Positions 15,885 through 54,385 of a DNA stretch of 64,000 nt are shown one piece after another. Location: assembly GCA_020848455.1 (NCBI GenBank), contig JADLAB010000446.1, forward strand, positions 1 through 64,000, written 5' to 3'. Both the position numbers and the translations under genes were made by a program. Position 1 is the stretch's first letter, and every line of letters begins with the position of its first letter. This stretch comes from Polyangiaceae bacterium. GTDB taxonomy: Bacteria; Myxococcota_A; Polyangia; Polyangiales; Polyangiaceae. The notes under the pieces were generated by a model, which saw nothing but the letters and a program-made list of their open reading frames with translations, searched no databases and was not told where the DNA came from.

Positions 15885-15886
15885 GC

Positions 15887-16005
15887 AACCACTGAGACAC
15901 GGAATCACGGAGAGCGGCTCGCAGCCGGCAGCGTTCGGAGATCCCTCCGTGTCACGCTCCGTGGCTCCGTGACTCCGTGGTTCTGCTGGTGCCGCTGCGA
16001 GCCGC
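15887..16005. repeat. Interleaved inverted-repeat element between convergent genes
   Basis: Two inverted repeats interleave. Repeat A: 15887-15914 matches the reverse complement of 15955-15982 at about 23 of 28 positions; its unit is a CACGGAG-type heptad repeated in the left arm and several times over 15945-15982. Repeat B: GCGGCTCGCAGC (15914-15925) is a perfect 12-base match to the reverse complement of 15994-16005. The order A-B-A'-B' gives a pseudoknot topology in RNA, or two alternative hairpins. It fills the gap between the hemerythrin and nuoK stop codons, so a bidirectional terminator role is plausible; the CACGGAG repeats look like a dispersed intergenic element. Confidence 0.6.
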
Positions 16006-20631: not shown

Positions 20632-22116
20632 TCAGGGCGGCGCCCAGTTCTGCCCGGCGTCGTCGGACGCCAGCAGGAACCAGCCGCGCCGCGGGGTGCC
20701 GGCAATGTCGCCCGAGAGCAGCATGAGCGTCCGGGCGGGCAGACCGATGAGCGCGCCGAGCTGGATCCGACCCGCGCCGACGTTGCCCTCGCCGATGGTG
20801 CGCGACTGCTCGAAGCTCTGTCCGCCGTCGAGCGAGTGGCTCACGTAGAGGCCCCAGCGCGCGTTCGTGTGGATGTCCACGACGCCCACGCTGCCTTTGG
20901 GCGTGCCGACTGCGACCAGCTGGTGCTCCTTCGCCTCGGGCCAGATCTTGAAGGGCCGGTTGCGGGTCGCGACGCACTTGCCGTCGAAGGTGCAGGTGAC
21001 GACGGTCGGCGCCTTGGCTTTCTCGTCGAAGCTCTCGAGCACCACCGCCTGGTCGCTGCACCCGAGCCATTGGGCCGTGGCGGGTGCCTTGCCGATTTCG
21101 GCGGGCAGCGCGAAGCGCACGCTCTTCGCCGATGATATCGCGACGACCTGGAGCGAGGAGCCCGCGCCGAGGCGCTGGAAGGACCAGCCCATGAACTCGC
21201 AGCCGGGCGGCTGCGCCAGCGCGTCCCAGGTGTTCGCGTCGCCCTTCGGGCCCTCGACCTTGGTGCCGCTCGCGAGCTTCTCGCCCGGCCGCGGCCACGG
21301 GCGGACCACGATGTCCGAGCCCTGCACCGACACGAGCATCGGCGGGCGGCCGTAGGGGACGGAAACGAAACGCTCGCCCGAGGGCAGCGGCAGGTCGGCC
21401 GGGCGCGGTTGCGGCGGCGGCGCGGCGTACGCAATGGCCCCGGGCACCACCACCGCGGCGAGGTCCGCGGCGAGCACGGCGGGGATCACCGCCGGAGCGT
21501 CGATGCGCGCATTCTTGAGCGGCGCGTCCGGGCCCACGATGGGCACGGGTGGGGTGAGCTGCGTGCCGTCCGGCGTCGGGAACGCGAGCGACAGGCGATC
21601 CCAGCCGGTCGCCGCCGCGGGCGGCTTCTTCGGCGCCTTCGGCGAGGGCGGCGGTGCGGCGCTCGGCTTGTCGCGCGTCGCGAACGCCACGACCAGCGCT
21701 CCCTCCGCGCCGACACCCCAGCCGTTCCATTGCTCGGGCCGGGAGCGGAGCATCTGCCAAGCGCCGCCGCGCGCCGTGGTGCGCAGGGCGAGCGTCTCCT
21801 CGTCGGTGTGACCGATGAGGACGGCGCCGCCCTCCGCGAAGACGACGGCCCGGTCCCAGATCATGCTGGACGACACCGTCTGGCCCGCCGCCTCGTGGAG
21901 CGGAAGCGCCGCACCGATGTCCGTTCTCAGGCCCTCGAAGGTGGCGTCGCCGGCGCGCATGGGCGTGAAGGGCGGCGGCGGCTCCTCCTGCTTCTTGTCG
22001 CCGCACCCGACGGCGAGCAGCAGCGCCGCGGTCGCCGCGAGCGCGCCCCGCCTGGGCGGGCGCGCCTCCGCGCGCGCCGTGCCGCCTCCGGGGCTCGGCC
22101 TGCCCTCAGTCGCCAT
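20632..22116 (-). CDS. Lipoprotein with BNR/sialidase-like beta-propeller repeats
   Basis: A 494-residue protein. A basic N-terminus and hydrophobic stretch end in the lipobox LAVGC, with the lipidated Cys at 38, followed by GDKKQEEPPPP. The mature part is beta-rich with sialidase-type Asp-box elements (SHSLDGGQSFEQSRTIGE and LLASDDAGQNWAPP, the S-x-D-x-G-x-x-W/F pattern) and a Cys pair in VTCTFDGKCVA. This suggests a propeller fold on the periplasmic face; enzyme activity cannot be claimed. The ATG at 22116 overlaps the upstream SUMF1-like lipoprotein gene by 11 bases, so the two are one operon. Confidence 0.83.
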   Translation of the reverse strand: MATEGRPSPGGGTARAEARPPRRGALAATAALLLAVGCGDKKQEEPPPPFTPMRAGDATFEGLRTDIGAALPLHEAAGQTVSSSMIWDRAVVFAEGGAVLIGHTDEETLALRTTARGGAWQMLRSRPEQWNGWGVGAEGALVVAFATRDKPSAAPPPSPKAPKKPPAAATGWDRLSLAFPTPDGTQLTPPVPIVGPDAPLKNARIDAPAVIPAVLAADLAAVVVPGAIAYAAPPPQPRPADLPLPSGERFVSVPYGRPPMLVSVQGSDIVVRPWPRPGEKLASGTKVEGPKGDANTWDALAQPPGCEFMGWSFQRLGAGSSLQVVAISSAKSVRFALPAEIGKAPATAQWLGCSDQAVVLESFDEKAKAPTVVTCTFDGKCVATRNRPFKIWPEAKEHQLVAVGTPKGSVGVVDIHTNARWGLYVSHSLDGGQSFEQSRTIGEGNVGAGRIQLGALIGLPARTLMLLSGDIAGTPRRGWFLLASDDAGQNWAPP

Positions 22117-23230
22117 CGCGCGGGTCGAGGCAGCAGCGAAAGCCGGTCGAATAGTCGTGGTAGTCGAATGGATGAGCCGTGGTGGCATACTCGCAGCCGT
22201 CGCCGTTGATCTTCGTGTCCAGGTAGAAACCGCCGCGGAACGTGCCCGCGGGGTCGTCGACCCACTCATGGAGGTTGCCCACCATGTCGAAGGTCCCGTA
22301 CGCGTTGGTGCAGCCCGCGTGCTCGCCGGTCCGGGCCACGGTGTGGTCGAGCTGGTTGATGAGCGGGTTCTGCATGCCCTCGTACCACATGCGGTCGTCG
22401 GGCAAGCGCAGGCTCGCGAACGCCTGCTTGACCGGGTGCGCGGAGCGTCCGCCGTCGTTGCACACGCCGCGCTGCCGCTCGTCGCCGTACGGGAAGGTGG
22501 TGTCGTTGGGCCCGCGGCACGCGCGCTCCCACTCCTCGGGCTGGCACAGGCGCTTGCCTGCCGCGGCGCACGCCTCCGCGGCCTGTGCGCCGCTGAGGTA
22601 GCCCTGCGGGACGACCCCGGCCCGCGACACGGCGCGCAGCCGCGCGCCCTTCGGACCCACCGACACGCGCTCGGGTGGCGGGCTCTGGTAGGGCGACCAG
22701 GCCGTCTCCGCGCCGTCCGGCGCCACGACGACGAGCGAGGCCTCCCAGCGGTCGACGCACACCTGTCCGTCGACGAGCGCCATGTCCTCGGGGCACGGCG
22801 CCGCAGGGTGCGCGGCCGGCCCGCGCCCGCCCGTGTCGAGCGAGCTCGGCGCCGCGTCGCCGTGTGCGAGCGGCTCCGCGGCGCTCGGCGTCGCGCCCTG
22901 CGGGGACCCCGCGGCGGGTGGGCTGCTCGGCGGTGCCTCCTTGCCCCGGACGGTCGGGGTCGGTGCGGCCTCCACGGCGCCGGCGTGCCCGGCCGGGGTC
23001 TGCTCGCGCGCGACGCCGTCGGTCGCGCCGAGCTCCGCGGGACTCGTCGCGCCGCGACCGGCGCCCGCAGCGGGCGTGCACGCCGCCGTCGTGCCGAGCG
23101 CCGCGACGAGCGCGAGCGCGGCGCCGCCGCGACGCACCGCCGCCGCGCGCGGCGCGCACACCGCGACCGTCGGGCGCTGTGCCGGCCGTGCGCCGCTCAC
23201 GCCCCGAGCGGGCCCGTCGCCGAGTGGCAT
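22106..23230 (-). CDS. Lipoprotein with SUMF1/FGE-like domain
   Basis: A 374-residue protein. The signal peptide ends in a lipobox with Cys51 (GTTAAC), followed by a Pro/Ala/Thr-rich linker and a formylglycine-generating-enzyme-type domain at about 145-372. Family landmarks are DMALVDGQVCVDRWEAS, AGKRLCQPEEWERACRGP, GTFDMVGNLHEWVDD, RGGFYLD and the terminal TGFRCC. The paired active-site cysteines of true FGE (C-x4-C between RGGS and the last C) are absent, so it is more likely a binding or structural protein than a sulfatase activator. A promoter lies six bases upstream of the ATG. Co-transcribed with the propeller lipoprotein. Confidence 0.87.
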   Translation of the reverse strand: MPLGDGPARGVSGARPAQRPTVAVCAPRAAAVRRGGAALALVAALGTTAACTPAAGAGRGATSPAELGATDGVAREQTPAGHAGAVEAAPTPTVRGKEAPPSSPPAAGSPQGATPSAAEPLAHGDAAPSSLDTGGRGPAAHPAAPCPEDMALVDGQVCVDRWEASLVVVAPDGAETAWSPYQSPPPERVSVGPKGARLRAVSRAGVVPQGYLSGAQAAEACAAAGKRLCQPEEWERACRGPNDTTFPYGDERQRGVCNDGGRSAHPVKQAFASLRLPDDRMWYEGMQNPLINQLDHTVARTGEHAGCTNAYGTFDMVGNLHEWVDDPAGTFRGGFYLDTKINGDGCEYATTAHPFDYHDYSTGFRCCLDPRDGD

Positions 23231-23236
23231 CTCGCG

Positions 23237-23265
23237 AGCATCGCGCGCCCGCGCCGCATCACCAA
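23237..23265 (-). promoter_or_regulatory. Leaderless promoter of the SUMF1-like gene at 23230
   Basis: On the minus strand, TTGGTG (23265-23260), a 17-bp spacer and GATGCT (23242-23237) are followed by six bases and then the ATG. The -10 is weak, but the six-base distance matches the other leaderless starts. Confidence 0.4.
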
Positions 23266-23340
23266 GTGTTTTCTCGTGCGCCGGCCGGCGGCGGCGCGGG
23301 ATTCTTCCTTCCACCGCCCCGCTCTGACATCCTCGCTCCG

Positions 23341-26138
23341 GTGGCTCCAGGGAGACTGCGCAACGCTCACCCCGTGGCGGCGCGCTCGCCGCGGGCCCGG
23401 CCGCTCGCCGCCTGCCTCGGCAGCGCGCTCGCGGCGACGAGCTGCGCGCCGGACGCGCTCGCCCCGCTCGAGCCGCCCTACGAGCAGCCCCCGGCGCGCT
23501 GCGACGCCGCCGACCCCGCCGTGCCCGCCGAGCTCGTGTTCTGCAACAGCGGCCGCGGGGACTTCGGCAGCTGGGAGCTCGACGAGCAGGGGCTCCCCGC
23601 CTACGACTACGGCCTCGACCAGAACGCCGACCCGCGCGCGGCCTTCTTCAACACCGAGGCGCTCGACCGGCGCGACCACTGGGCGAGCTTCGGCAACGAC
23701 CGGATCGACGGCCTGTTCTACAACGACGGCTACGTCGAGCTCGTGACGCAGGACCGCGGCCCGAGCTACCTCAACAAGTTCGATGCCGCGGCGGGGCAGT
23801 GGGCCGGCGGCTTCTCGTACCTGCGCGAGGGCGACGACGCGTGGTGCACCGCCTACAAGTGGCGGCCCCCGGGTGCCCGACCCCGGCGTCGCTTCGGCGC
23901 GGGCTACGCCGAGAGCAGCCTCGAGCACGCGGGCATCGCCGTGCGCCGTCGGCTGCACGCGCCGGCCGGCGACGCCGCCGCGCTCGTCGCCGAGGTCGAG
24001 ATCGCGAACGCGAGCGCCGAGCCGCGCCGGCTCAGCCACTACGAGCTCTGGGATGTCGCGCGCCGCCCCATCGAGATCGACTGGATGGTCTCCGGGCTGC
24101 CCTTCGCGGGGGTGCCCGACGAGGTGCGTGCCGCCCGCGACGGGCGCAATGCGCTCTTCGAGGAGCGCGCCGAGTACGACCCCGCCGAGCGCCTGCTCGG
24201 CGTGCGGCGGCGTCACGTGGAGCCGCCTCCGCCGCGCGGCGCACCCGATCCGGTCGACCACTACCCGGGCGATCCCTACCTCGTGGCGCTCGTGGGCGAC
24301 GTGGCGGACGCCTACGTCGACGGCACGGCGTTCTTCGGCGCCGAAGGCGACCCCGAGGCGCGCGTGCGCGCGCCGGCCGCGGTCGTCGCGGGCGCGCCCG
24401 GCACGGGCCTCGCGCCCGGCCCGAAGGACGACTGGCGGAGCGCGCTCGGTCAGTCCCACGTGCTCGTCCTGCGGAGCGATCTCGAGCTGCCCGCCTACGG
24501 CCGCGCGGTGCTGCGCTACGCCTTCGGCTACGCCGAGCTCGGCGCGCCGTGGAGCGTGCCCGCCGCGTGGCGCGCGCGCCTGGCTACGACGGCGTCGGCG
24601 CGACCGCCGCGGCGCTCCGCCCCCACCTGCTGTACTTCGCGAGCGCGGACGCGCCCGCGCTCCAGCGCGAGCTCGCCTGGCACGCCCAGGCGCTCGAGAC
24701 GAGCGTCGCCTGGCGCGAGTACTGGCAGCGCCACGTGGTGCCGCAGGGCTCGGCCTACCTGTGGCTGCACGGAGCCGACGGCGCGGCGCGCGATCTCTCG
24801 CTCTTCGCCGTCCCGCTCGTCTTCACGCACGCCGCGCTCGCCCGTGACGAGCTCGCGCTCAACATGATGATGACGCACGCGGCCGACCATCGCATCGCCT
24901 ACGCCTTCCAGGGCCACGGCGTGCTCGACGACGCGCTCGGGCTGCACGCCCGCCCGAGCGATCTCACGCTGTTCCTGCTGTGGTCGCTCGGCGAGTACCT
25001 CGGCGCGACCGGCGACCTCGCCTTCCTCGACGCGCCCATGCCCTACCACCCGGTCGAGGCCGACCCGGGCGCCACGGTCTGGGACCACCTGGTCGCCGCG
25101 GTGCGCTACCTCGTCGATCGCGTGGGCCTCGGTCCCCACGGCCTCGTGCGCATCGGCGACGGCGACTGGAACGACGGCATCGTGCTCGCCGCCGCGGACC
25201 ACGATCTGGCGGTGGCCGACGGCGAGAGCGTGCCCAACACGCAGATGGCCATCGCGGTCCTGCCGCGCGTGGCCGAGCTCGTCGCGCCGCGCGACCCCGC
25301 GCTCGCGAGCGAGCTCGTCGCCTACGTCGCGGCCCTGCGCGCCGCCCTGCCGGTCGCGTGGACCGGGAGCTTCTTCGGGCGCGCCTTCTTCGGCGACGGC
25401 GTGCTCCACCACGCCGACCGGATCGACCTCGAGGCGCAGGTCTGGGCGCTCGTCGGCGACACCTTCGCGAGCCCCGCCGAGCGCGACGCCCTCGTCGCCG
25501 CGGTGGCGAGCGAGCTCGACGACCCTTCGCCCGCAGGCGCCACGCTCGTCCCGGGCGGCGAGGTCTGGCCGGCGGTGAGCGCCCTGCTCACCTGGGGCTA
25601 CGCCCGCAGCGACCCGACCCGCGCCTGGCGGCACCTGCTGCGCAACACCCTGGCCGCCCACGCGGACGCGTACCCGGACCTCTGGTACGGCATCTGGAGC
25701 GGCCCTGACGGGCTCGCCGGGCCCGGCGGCGCACGCCCGGGCGAGGCCTGGTACAGCCCGGTCACGCCGATGACCGACTTCCCGACGATGAACAACAACC
25801 AGCACGCGCTGCCGCTGCTCGCCGCGCTGCGCGTGGCGGGCGTCGAGGCGACCGCGGCCGGCCTGCTCGTCACGCCGCGCGTCCCCGAGCGCACGCTGTC
25901 GCTCCGCACGGAGCTCGTCGACCTGTCCGAGCGCCCCGACCACGTCGAGGGCAGCTACCGCCCGCGCGGCGGGGCGGACCGCGTGCTCGAGGTCGCCGCG
26001 CCCCCGGGCCGCGTGGTCGTGGCTGCGAGCGTCGCCGGGGTGGCCGTGCCGGTGCCGGCGAGCGCCGCGCGGGTGAGCCTGCCCGCGCCCGCGGGTCTCA
26101 CCACGACCTTCGCCGTCGACTTCGCGCCGGCACCCTGA
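23341..26138 (+). pseudogene. Frameshifted lipoprotein with GH94 (glycan phosphorylase)-like catalytic domain
   Basis: Two overlapping frames together encode one protein of about 930 residues. The first (from GTG 23341, or GTG 23374) gives a lipobox signal (ALAATSC, Cys35) and a beta-sandwich-like N-terminal domain; it runs past the break to a stop at 24867. From about 24582 the other frame continues the protein (GYDGVGATAAALRPHLLYF) to 26138 with an (alpha/alpha)6-type domain. That part holds IGDGDWNDGIVL, the motif bearing the family's acid Asp, and FPTMNNNQHA. The shift lies in or just after a CG-repeat at 24569-24580; one extra base in CTGGCTAC would restore the frame. It may be a real mutation or a sequencing error. 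Export of a GH94-type enzyme is unusual. Confidence 0.7.
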
Positions 26139-51784: not shown

Positions 51785-51968
51785 GGCCGAAGCGTAGCGC
51801 GACACCGGTGCCCGCGGGAAGCTTTGCTCCGGCGCCCCGTCCGGGCGCCCCGCCACGCAACGCGCGGTCAGTATCGCCCCCCCGGGGCGGCGCCGGCGCG
51901 CTACCCTGCGGGCCGCGGCGCCGGGCCCGCGAGCGCGCGCACGCCGGCGAGCAGGCGCGCGCGCGGGC

Positions 51969-53951
51969 TCACTCGTCCTCGGCGCGCAGCTTGGCGATGA
52001 CGCCGAAGTCCTCCAGCGTCGAGAGGTCGCCGCTCGTCTCCCGGCCGGCCGCGACGTCCTTCAGGAGCCGGCGCATGATCTTGCCGCTGCGCGTCTTCGG
52101 CAGCGCCTCGGCGAAGCGGATCTGGTCGGGGCGGGCGAATTTGCCGAGCTGCTCGCCCACGTGCTGCGCGAGCGTCTCGGCGAGCTCGGCGCTCGGGTGA
52201 TGGTTGCCCTTGATGGTGACGAACACGACGAGGGCCTGGCCCTTGAGCTCGTCGGCGCGACCCACGGCCGCCGCCTCGGCCACGGCGGGATGCGACACGA
52301 GCGCGCTCTCGATCTCGGCCGTGCCGATGCGGTGACCGGCCACGTTGAGCACGTCGTCGATGCGCCCGACGACCCAGTGGTAGCCGTCCTCGTCGCGGCG
52401 GGCGCCGTCGCCGGTGAAGTAGGCGCCCGGTATCGCGCTCCAGTACTGCTCGCGGTAGCGGGCATCGTCGCCCCACACCGTGCGCAGCATCGCCGGCCAC
52501 GGACGTCGGACGACGAGCTTGCCGCCGCTGCCCGGCGCCACGTCGACGCCCTGGTCGTCCACCACGGCGACCTCGACGCCGAAGAACGGCAGCCCGGCGG
52601 CGCCCGGCTTCGAGAAGGCGGCGCCCGGCAGGGTGGTCAGCATGATGGAGCCGGTCTCGGTTTGCCACCACGTGTCGACGACCGGGCAGCGGTCCCCGCC
52701 GATGAAATGATGGTACCACACCCATGCCTCGGGGTTGATGGGCTCTCCCACGGTACCCAGCAAGCGCAGGCTCGACAGGTCGCTCTTCTGCGGCCAGTCG
52801 CTGCCCTGCCGCATGAAGGCGCGGATGGCGGTCGGCGCGGTGTAGAGGATGGTGACCCCGTGCTTCTCGACGATGCGCCAGAAGCGCCCCCAGTCGGGGA
52901 AATTCGGCGCCCCCTCGTAGAGCAGGCAGGTGGCGCCGTTCGACAGCGGCCCGTAGACGATGTAGCTGTGCCCGGTGACCCAGCCGATGTCGGCGGTGCA
53001 CCAGTAGACGTCCTCGTCGCGCAGGTCGAAGACGTACTTCGACGTGACGTGTACTCCTACGAGGTATCCGGCGCTCGTGTGCAGCACACCCTTGGGACGT
53101 CCGGTAGAGCCCGACGTGTAGAGGATGAACAGCGGGTGCTCGGCGTCGACCGCCACCGCCCCGCCCCCCGGCAGCCGGTCGGCCTCGCTCATGAGCGCGT
53201 CCCACTCGTGGTCGCGGCCCGGTTGCATCGCGATGCGGCAGCCGTCCGGCCCGATGCGCCGGAACACCACCACGTTCTCGACCGAGCGCGCCTCGTGCTG
53301 GGCGAGGGCCCGGTCCACCATGTCCTTCAAGGGGACCACCGTGCCGCGCCGGTAGGCTCCGTCCTGGGTGATGAGCACCTTCGGCTGGCAGTCGTGGATG
53401 CGATCGCGCAGCGCGTCCGGCGCGAAGCCGCCGAACACGACCGTGTGGACGGCGCCGAGCCGCGCGCAGGCCAGCATCGCGATGACCGCCTCGGGCACCA
53501 TCCCCATGTAGATCGCGACCCGGTCGCCCTTCTGGACGCCGAGCTTCACGAGCGCGCGCGTCAGGCGCACCGTGTCGCGGTGGAGCTGCGCGTAGGTCCA
53601 CGTGCGCGTCTCGCCGGGCTCGCTCTCCCACACGAGCGCGGCCTTGTTCTTGCGCGGGCCGCGCAGGTGCCGGTCGAGGCAGCTCTCGGTGACGTTGAGC
53701 TCGGCGCCGACGAACCACTGTGCGTGGGGCGGCTGCCACACGAGCGTCGTGCGCCAGGGCTTGCGGAACACGAGCTCCTGCGCCTCGCGCTTCCAGAAGG
53801 CGTCGGGGGCCTCGAGGCTCTCGCGGTAGAGCTTGTCGTACTCCTCCCGCAGGCTCACGTGCGCCTGCTCGGCGAAGGACACCGGGGGCTCGAAGCGGCG
53901 CTCTTCTTTGAGCAGCGTGGCGATGGCATCGTCTGCGGGCTGTTGCGTCAT
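51969..53951 (-). CDS. acsA: Acetyl-CoA synthetase
   Basis: A 660-residue AMP-forming enzyme (acetate + CoA + ATP to acetyl-CoA). Motifs: [17 protein letters not shown] (P-loop-like A3), [35 protein letters not shown] and the A10 lysine in [11 protein letters not shown], the residue controlled by acetylation in this family. Length is normal. The ATG at 53951 begins the conserved N-terminus; the longer frame upstream lacks similarity. TATCGT (53992-53987, minus) may be its -10. The 3' end is 185 bases from the secreted TPR gene. Confidence 0.96.
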
Positions 53952-54385
53952 GGGGCTCCCCACCAGGGTGTGTGTGCGGGCTGGAGACGATAGCGAAGGC
54001 GGGCGCGGTGCGAAACCCTCGGCCCCGAGCCCGCCGCGCGGCCGGGGTCCGCCGCGCACGCTCGACCGGGCGGCGCGACCGATTCGCCCGCGCGCCGCGC
54101 GCGGCCGCGGCGTGGTCGCGAATTTGTCTTTTGATATCCAGGTATTGCGATGTTGTCCGCGCGCGCTCTCTGCGGCTTGAATCGCCCGCCGGTGCAGCCT
54201 AGAGTCGCCGCCCCTGCCGCGGGTGTGAGGCGTGAGACCTCGCGACGCGGCGGGTACGTGGAGTGCCTCGGCTCCGGTGGTGCGCGAGGCCTCCCGATGC
54301 CCGAGCGTATGCCTTCGACCGCGGTCGTCGCGAAGCTTCCCAGATCCGGGGTGCCTCCGACGGCTGCGGGCGGGCCGAGGTGGAG
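53952..54385. other. Divergent intergenic region between acsA and the giant TPR gene
   Basis: Holds no gene. It contains the likely acsA -10 (minus strand, 53992-53987), an unusually AT-rich patch at about 54119-54154 and the TTGAAT/TAGAGT promoter for the giant gene. The AT patch could be a regulator site or UP-like element. Confidence 0.5.
54177..54205 (+). promoter_or_regulatory. Promoter of the giant TPR gene
   Basis: TTGAAT (54177-54182) and TAGAGT (54200-54205) are exactly 17 bp apart. The leader would be about 175 bases, unlike the leaderless genes elsewhere. An AT-rich patch lies just upstream. Confidence 0.45.

Follow-up and report, generated by a model that had tools for sequence, protein, structure and literature searches.

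The window analyzed here, a 64,000-nucleotide stretch of DNA from a member of the Polyangiaceae, carries what on balance we take to be a single gene encoding an enzyme of the GH94 fold that is exported and probably lipid-anchored. The gene is broken at this place, and the intact form of the enzyme most likely acts as an inverting glycosidase or transglycosidase. The sequence does contain the frame break, and none of the relatives compared shares it. As judged from aligned sequences, the group of related proteins appears to have lost the phosphate site of GH94 phosphorylases, and with phosphate-binding residues missing from the whole group, a change of activity is likely. The protein is filed here in GH94 by its fold and sequence, but not as a phosphorylase.

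One gene read in two frames

The coding sequence begins in one frame at a GTG codon (23341) and ends in another at a stop codon (26138). The two frames are out of register and switch at 24569-24590, which is where a sequence-only reading of this DNA had located the change. That claim is borne out by the two frames themselves and by a switch in the codon phase of substitutions relative to a sister sequence. The sister comes from G082, the one genome found in the genus of the window, which has the same gene at 98% protein identity; over 4,554 bases its locus is identical to L031, from a record titled Myxococcales groundwater MAG. Sister and window DNA are 93.5% identical over 4,350 bases. Sorted by position modulo three, substitutions number 14, 5, and 4 in the 400 bases before the site and 1, 2, and 13 in the 400 bases after it, which is the shifted phase. 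In the alignment with L031, the window has two bases at the site, one CG unit, that are missing from the sister, and one C/T difference adjoins. The earlier proposal that one inserted base would restore the protein had the phase right, because a gain of two bases shifts the frame as a loss of one does, but the sister alignment describes the event better as a gained two-base CG unit. The relevant features are as follows.

23341..24570 (+): N-terminal half, with a signal-like start, a weak lipobox, and the GH94 beta-supersandwich (translation; PF06165, E 1.4e-5)
23443-23445 (+): Cys codon of the weak lipobox (translation from GTG 23341)
24570..24579 (+): alternating C/G tract at the frame change (alignment with L031; codon-phase switch)
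24582..26138 (+): C-terminal half in the shifted frame, with a GH94-type (alpha/alpha)6 catalytic domain and a C-terminal beta domain (translation; PF17167, E 2.3e-15; fold of the sister protein)
24865..24867 (+): stop codon that closes the N-terminal frame in the sequence as it stands, ahead of the catalytic motifs (ORF 22675-24867)
25173..25175 (+): codon of the general acid Asp in the GDWND motif, Asp611 of L031 (kept in 25/25 family and 64/64 comparison proteins)
25554..25580 (+): GGEVWPAVS, where ordinary GH94 enzymes have ENGGxYxH; no His and no Glu-Asn
25707..25709 (+): codon for the residue that is Asp789 in L031, present in 25/25 family members and a candidate catalytic base
25758..25808 (+): PVTPMTDFPTMNNNQHA, in the region of WYTG[SA] in ordinary GH94 enzymes

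Because the N-terminal frame as written stops at 24865-24867, an exported product would end before the catalytic domain. Which codon starts the gene is uncertain, since the N-terminal frame is open upstream to 22597.

Relatives that encoded the two parts as separate genes would have spoken against a broken gene, and tblastn showed none. All 25 related loci (L002-L026) hold both halves in one frame, and only the window (L001), with its halves in frames 2 and 1, differs. Loci L031-L040 likewise have the halves in one frame, most of them being the same loci again. Programmed frameshifting and a pair of separate genes were considered as alternatives, and both were rejected on the ground of the frame that the two halves share in these 25 relatives.

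The source genome is a draft of 742 contigs (9.2 Mb, 96.5% complete), in which the C-terminal half has a single match (E <= 0.001). Neither half matched in a search of NCBIfam, and a search of the window against Rfam matched nothing. Among the compared loci, most of which have short flanks, no conserved operon that might serve as a substrate clue was seen by eye. The sole repeated neighbor of note is an FGE-sulfatase-domain protein, whose gene adjoins in both the window and L004. In the window it has a lipoprotein-like start and lies divergently at 22109-23314 on the minus strand (PF03781, E 8e-11); in L004 it lies downstream from the GH94-like gene (PF03781, E 4.3e-8). Within the FGE-like gene of the window, ARAGORN places an antisense tRNA-Thr (cgt) at 22797-22894 (+), which is probably a false positive in GC-rich DNA because Rfam shows no tRNA in the window. 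Elsewhere, a stretch of about 110 bases at 15886-15996 has more than 20 matches on different G082 contigs at roughly 81-92% identity and is a dispersed repeat. It adjoins the end of a gene that, from its sequence, we take to be nuoK-like.

A distinct family with a predicted GH94 fold

Three lines of evidence confirm that the protein is GH94-like: Pfam, the PDB search with the family profile, and the fold predicted for the intact sister protein. Both halves in the window match GH94 domains of Pfam, PF06165 being the supersandwich and PF17167 the catalytic domain (E values above), and among 25 aligned family proteins the catalytic domain is matched by all 25 and the supersandwich by 19. Searched with a profile of these 25 proteins, the PDB yielded 21 distinct sequences at E <= 0.001, the best of them at E 1.9e-31. 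Their names are those of cellobiose phosphorylase or related phosphorylases, of cyclic glucan synthase, or, in the case of 5h3z, "uncharacterized protein", an entry that the fold-match list identifies as LpSOGP. The 25-member alignment leaves out L002, which is the same locus as L031; L011, L016, L018, and L027, which are cut by contig ends or are fragments; and L032-L036 and L040, which were judged to be repeat loci from near-identical match values.

The model of the intact sister protein (pLDDT 91.3, pTM 0.91) matches 3rrs in Foldseek at E 1.1e-33 and superimposes on the cellobiose phosphorylase 3qde with Z 28.4 and rmsd 3.2 over 729 residues at 17% identity. Fold matches ranking below GH94 are other (alpha/alpha)6 enzymes, many of them hydrolases, such as Rha-2 (Z 22.4). 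In the model, the break site falls on two short helices that follow the last strand of the supersandwich (residues 388-398) and precede the first long helix of the catalytic domain (438-453). A two-helix linker at the corresponding place is described for GH94 (PMC5667895).

In a FastTree phylogeny, a branch with support 1.0 separates the 25 family members from 64 other GH94-type proteins, and the separation held after four more comparison proteins were added. The comparison set was chosen by the presence of DWND and TG motifs, and comprises 64 of 72 loci; the other eight lack the selection motifs in one ORF, and all eight show the Glu-Asn and His motif on inspection. Another GH94-like branch was noted, formed by L055, L083, L094, and L096, which has AENGPxYxHG in place of ENGGxYTHA and keeps the His, and in which no YTG motif was found. 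These four were tried as proteins sharing the loss of the phosphate motif and were rejected, since they keep AENGPxYxHG and belong to that other branch.

Apparent loss of the phosphate site

For the cellobiose phosphorylase CgCBP, the literature names Asp490 as the general acid, Arg351, His666, Thr731, and Gly732 as phosphate residues, and Arg367, Asp368, Trp488, Glu659, and Asn660 among the sugar residues (PMC5501786). These were matched to motifs of the comparison proteins by spacing, CgCBP itself being outside the alignment. In the joint alignment, the family retains the general acid Asp in all 25 members, together with the Arg367-type (24/25), Asp368-type (25/25), and Trp488-type (24/25) residues. 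The phosphate His is present in none of the 25 and in all 64 comparison proteins, and the Thr731-type and Gly732-type residues are found in one and none of the family, respectively. At subsite -1, the Glu659-type residue is absent from every member and the Asn660-type residue is found in two, versus Glu and Asn in 64/64 of the comparison set. In the column tentatively taken for Arg351, a guess because CgCBP is not in the alignment, no member has Arg (Ser in 23, Gly in two). Full conservation of DWND and Thr-Gly in the comparison set is given by construction, because those motifs were used to choose it.

An alignment-free search of the 25 proteins also found neither ENGG nor any TG-type motif. 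A GGxFxH-like match does occur in L039, at residue 490 and well before the region of the acid motif. In the Thr-Gly region, the placements by hhalign (global, E 3.8e-70) and by MAFFT lie a few residues apart. Three acidic residues of L031, Glu443, Glu697, and Asp789, are each present in 25/25 family members; among the 64 comparison proteins the Glu443 column is mostly Ala, Val, or Leu, the Glu697 column mostly Ile, Asn, or Leu, and the Asp789 column mostly a gap, with seven Asp.

Probable export of the group

The sequence-only reading also took the product to be exported and noted a lipobox in the N-terminal frame. The lipobox of the window itself is weak (ATSC, residues 32-35 counted from GTG 23341), and it is the relatives that lend it support. 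A lipobox-like match lies within the first 60 residues of 20 of the 25 family proteins under a loose pattern and of seven under a strict one, as scanned with simple patterns and start codons chosen by hand, and in L004 and L006 a Cys following a hydrophobic stretch is visible by eye. Signals in most members suggest that export characterizes a group rather than one odd gene. Of the 183 genomes searched in the order, 26 carry a relative at E <= 1e-40, counting the genome of the window.

Four of the 25 proteins, L023-L026, contain RR-x-F-L, which we take to be a Tat-signal motif. With a lipobox-like Cys in addition, they are apparent Tat lipoproteins, and they form a long branch of their own (support 1.0). 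The pattern scan found no lipobox in L037-L039, from records titled Chloroflexi, Bacteroidetes, and Candidatus Njordarchaeum.

Recent mutation or consensus error

Strong selection on the gene and the privacy of the break agree with the earlier opinion that the break is either recent or a sequencing error. Between window and sister, dN/dS is 0.073 for the C-terminal half, 0.216 for residues 71-411 of the N-terminal half, and 1.36 for the first 70 codons. Amino acid changes in the N-terminal half number four on the window side, seven on the sister side, and nine of unclear side; those in the C-terminal half number two, four, and four. The low dN/dS and the lack of any window-side excess of changes indicate that the gene was under selection until very recently, and strong selection on the catalytic half therefore makes the break either very recent or a consensus error. 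Over 30,175 aligned bases of the window, no other clear frame-changing indel was found within a gene, one case at 53978 near a gene start being unclear; the remaining frame-changing indels seem to fall in intergenic DNA, as placed by our own reading of ORF lists and codon phase. In two indel clusters, at 14.7 and 51.9 kb, the lengths add up to a multiple of three; these indels were placed as clusters rather than singly. One cluster, at 51844-51978, has lengths that sum to minus 18 relative to the sister, and adjoins the end of a minus-strand ORF.

The choice between recent mutation and consensus error is about even. Close to an even chance attaches to a consensus or assembly error, with the gene intact in the organism: the assembly is a draft in 742 contigs, purifying selection on the gene is strong, the gene is the sole match in its genome, and the change sits in a very GC-rich alternating tract, but the lack of any other clear in-gene frame-changing indel in the 30,175 bases indicates that the stretch is not generally error-ridden. 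That same scarcity of frame changes nearby, the gain of a whole repeat unit, and the lack of excess amino acid changes on the window side, as expected for a very recent event, speak for a true loss-of-function mutation by gain of one CG unit, which we hold to be scarcely less plausible.

It is very improbable, in contrast, that the tract acts as a phase-variable switch of the exported enzyme, as had also been suggested. The change in length by a whole dinucleotide unit fits such a switch, but the tract is short and CGCGCGCG is no commoner in the window than chance would have it (74 matches versus 94.6 +/- 9.7 in shuffles). Among alternating C/G tracts of at least 8 bases in the aligned part, 35 of 38 have the same length in the sister; of the three that differ, one is the break-site tract and the others belong to the indel-rich stretch at 51.9 kb. 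The break-site tract is an ordinary one, and the comparison with the sister gives no sign of length variation beyond background.

Proposed activity of the intact enzyme

In the mechanism that we favor, a single gene would give rise to an exported, probably lipid-anchored enzyme of GH94 fold, and a two-base length change in the linker between the two main domains breaks this gene in the assembly. The intact enzyme of the relatives would be an inverting glycosidase or transglycosidase that acts outside the cytoplasm. By alignment, the general acid Asp is kept, and the phosphate columns and part of the subsite -1 columns are replaced. An inverting phosphorylase gets by with one catalytic residue, phosphate being the base, and an inverting hydrolase requires a second one (PMC8950772). 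That the family keeps the acid but not the phosphate site suggests attack by water or a sugar hydroxyl in place of phosphate, with an acidic residue to activate it. For this base, Glu443 and Asp789 of L031 come first among the candidates; Glu697 is a weaker one because Glu also occurs there in cellobiose phosphorylases aligned to the profile.

That the intact enzyme is still a phosphorylase, periplasmic or not exported and holding phosphate with other residues, seems to us unlikely, if worth serious attention. Its nearest neighbors in fold and sequence are GH94 phosphorylases, the Arg367-, Asp368-, and Trp488-type residues are kept, and phosphate contacts vary within GH94. In LpSOGP, a working GH94 phosphorylase, both Thr-Gly positions are Ser (PMC5309861), so loss of Thr-Gly alone would not exclude phosphorolysis. 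However, LpSOGP retains His924 and Glu917 by the same account, and the argument must therefore rest on His, Thr-Gly, and Glu-Asn being lost together, above all His and Glu, to which the export signals of most members can be added. A still less probable reading takes the family to be catalytically inactive sugar-binding lipoproteins. The phosphate residues appear lost and the replacement base is a candidate, but the general acid is present in 25/25 members, other acidic residues are invariant, and it is in the catalytic half that window and sister differ least. From the sequence comparisons, an exported inverting glycosidase or transglycosidase is the most likely description, rather than a phosphorylase.

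Comparison with known systems

GH94 cellobiose phosphorylases (3qde, 2cqs, and others) share with the family the two-domain layout with a helical linker, the predicted fold, the general acid Asp, and the Arg-Asp and Trp of subsite -1. They differ in sequence (17% identity to 3qde) and in the phosphate His, Thr-Gly, and Glu-Asn, which the family has replaced. Cellobiose phosphorylase is called intracellular in PMC4061319, unlike the family, most of whose members have export signals. The GH94 domain of cyclic beta-1,2-glucan synthase (8rf0, 8rf9) is also similar (profile match E 1e-27, Z 24.5-25.4), but it is one domain of a protein of about 2,800 residues, whereas the family protein has about 930 residues and a signal of its own.

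A parallel in mode of action is offered by the GH65 alpha-1,2-glucosidase FjGH65A, which is described as having lost the phosphate site and kept the acid, with Glu616 as base (PMC8626586). This hydrolase within a phosphorylase family is an analogy of working only (7fe3, Z 20.4, 9% identity): it belongs to another family and clan, and its base is proven whereas those of the GH94-like family are candidates. The beta-1,2-glucanases of clan GH-S (GH144, GH162, GH192-GH194) resemble the proposed enzyme in being anomer-inverting (alpha/alpha)6 hydrolases, several of them with signal peptides, as described in PMC12102758; they are not named among the profile matches or the fold matches listed. The same source treats clan GH-Q (GH94, GH149, GH161) as phosphorylases with conserved catalytic, phosphate, and subsite -1 residues. 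A search of titles and the beginnings of abstracts in open PMC, a collection that mostly leaves subscription papers outside, found no exported GH94-like family without the phosphate site.

The frameshift itself carries little weight beyond caution regarding the annotation of draft genomes. A branch that is exported and has retained the acid while losing the other residues would stand as an exception within clan GH-Q. We propose tentatively, at somewhat less than an even chance, that a monophyletic and mostly exported family has left phosphorolysis and is the first non-phosphorylase branch of GH-Q, with a new base and with export through Sec and, in one branch, apparently Tat. Within the order this family reaches 26/183 genomes (E <= 1e-40), and records titled Chloroflexi, Bacteroidetes, and Candidatus Njordarchaeum hold relatives. 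If the proposal is true, it would be another showing, after GH65, of a phosphorylase becoming a hydrolase or transglycosidase, and the "GH94 phosphorylase" names given to genes in such bacteria would be wrong.
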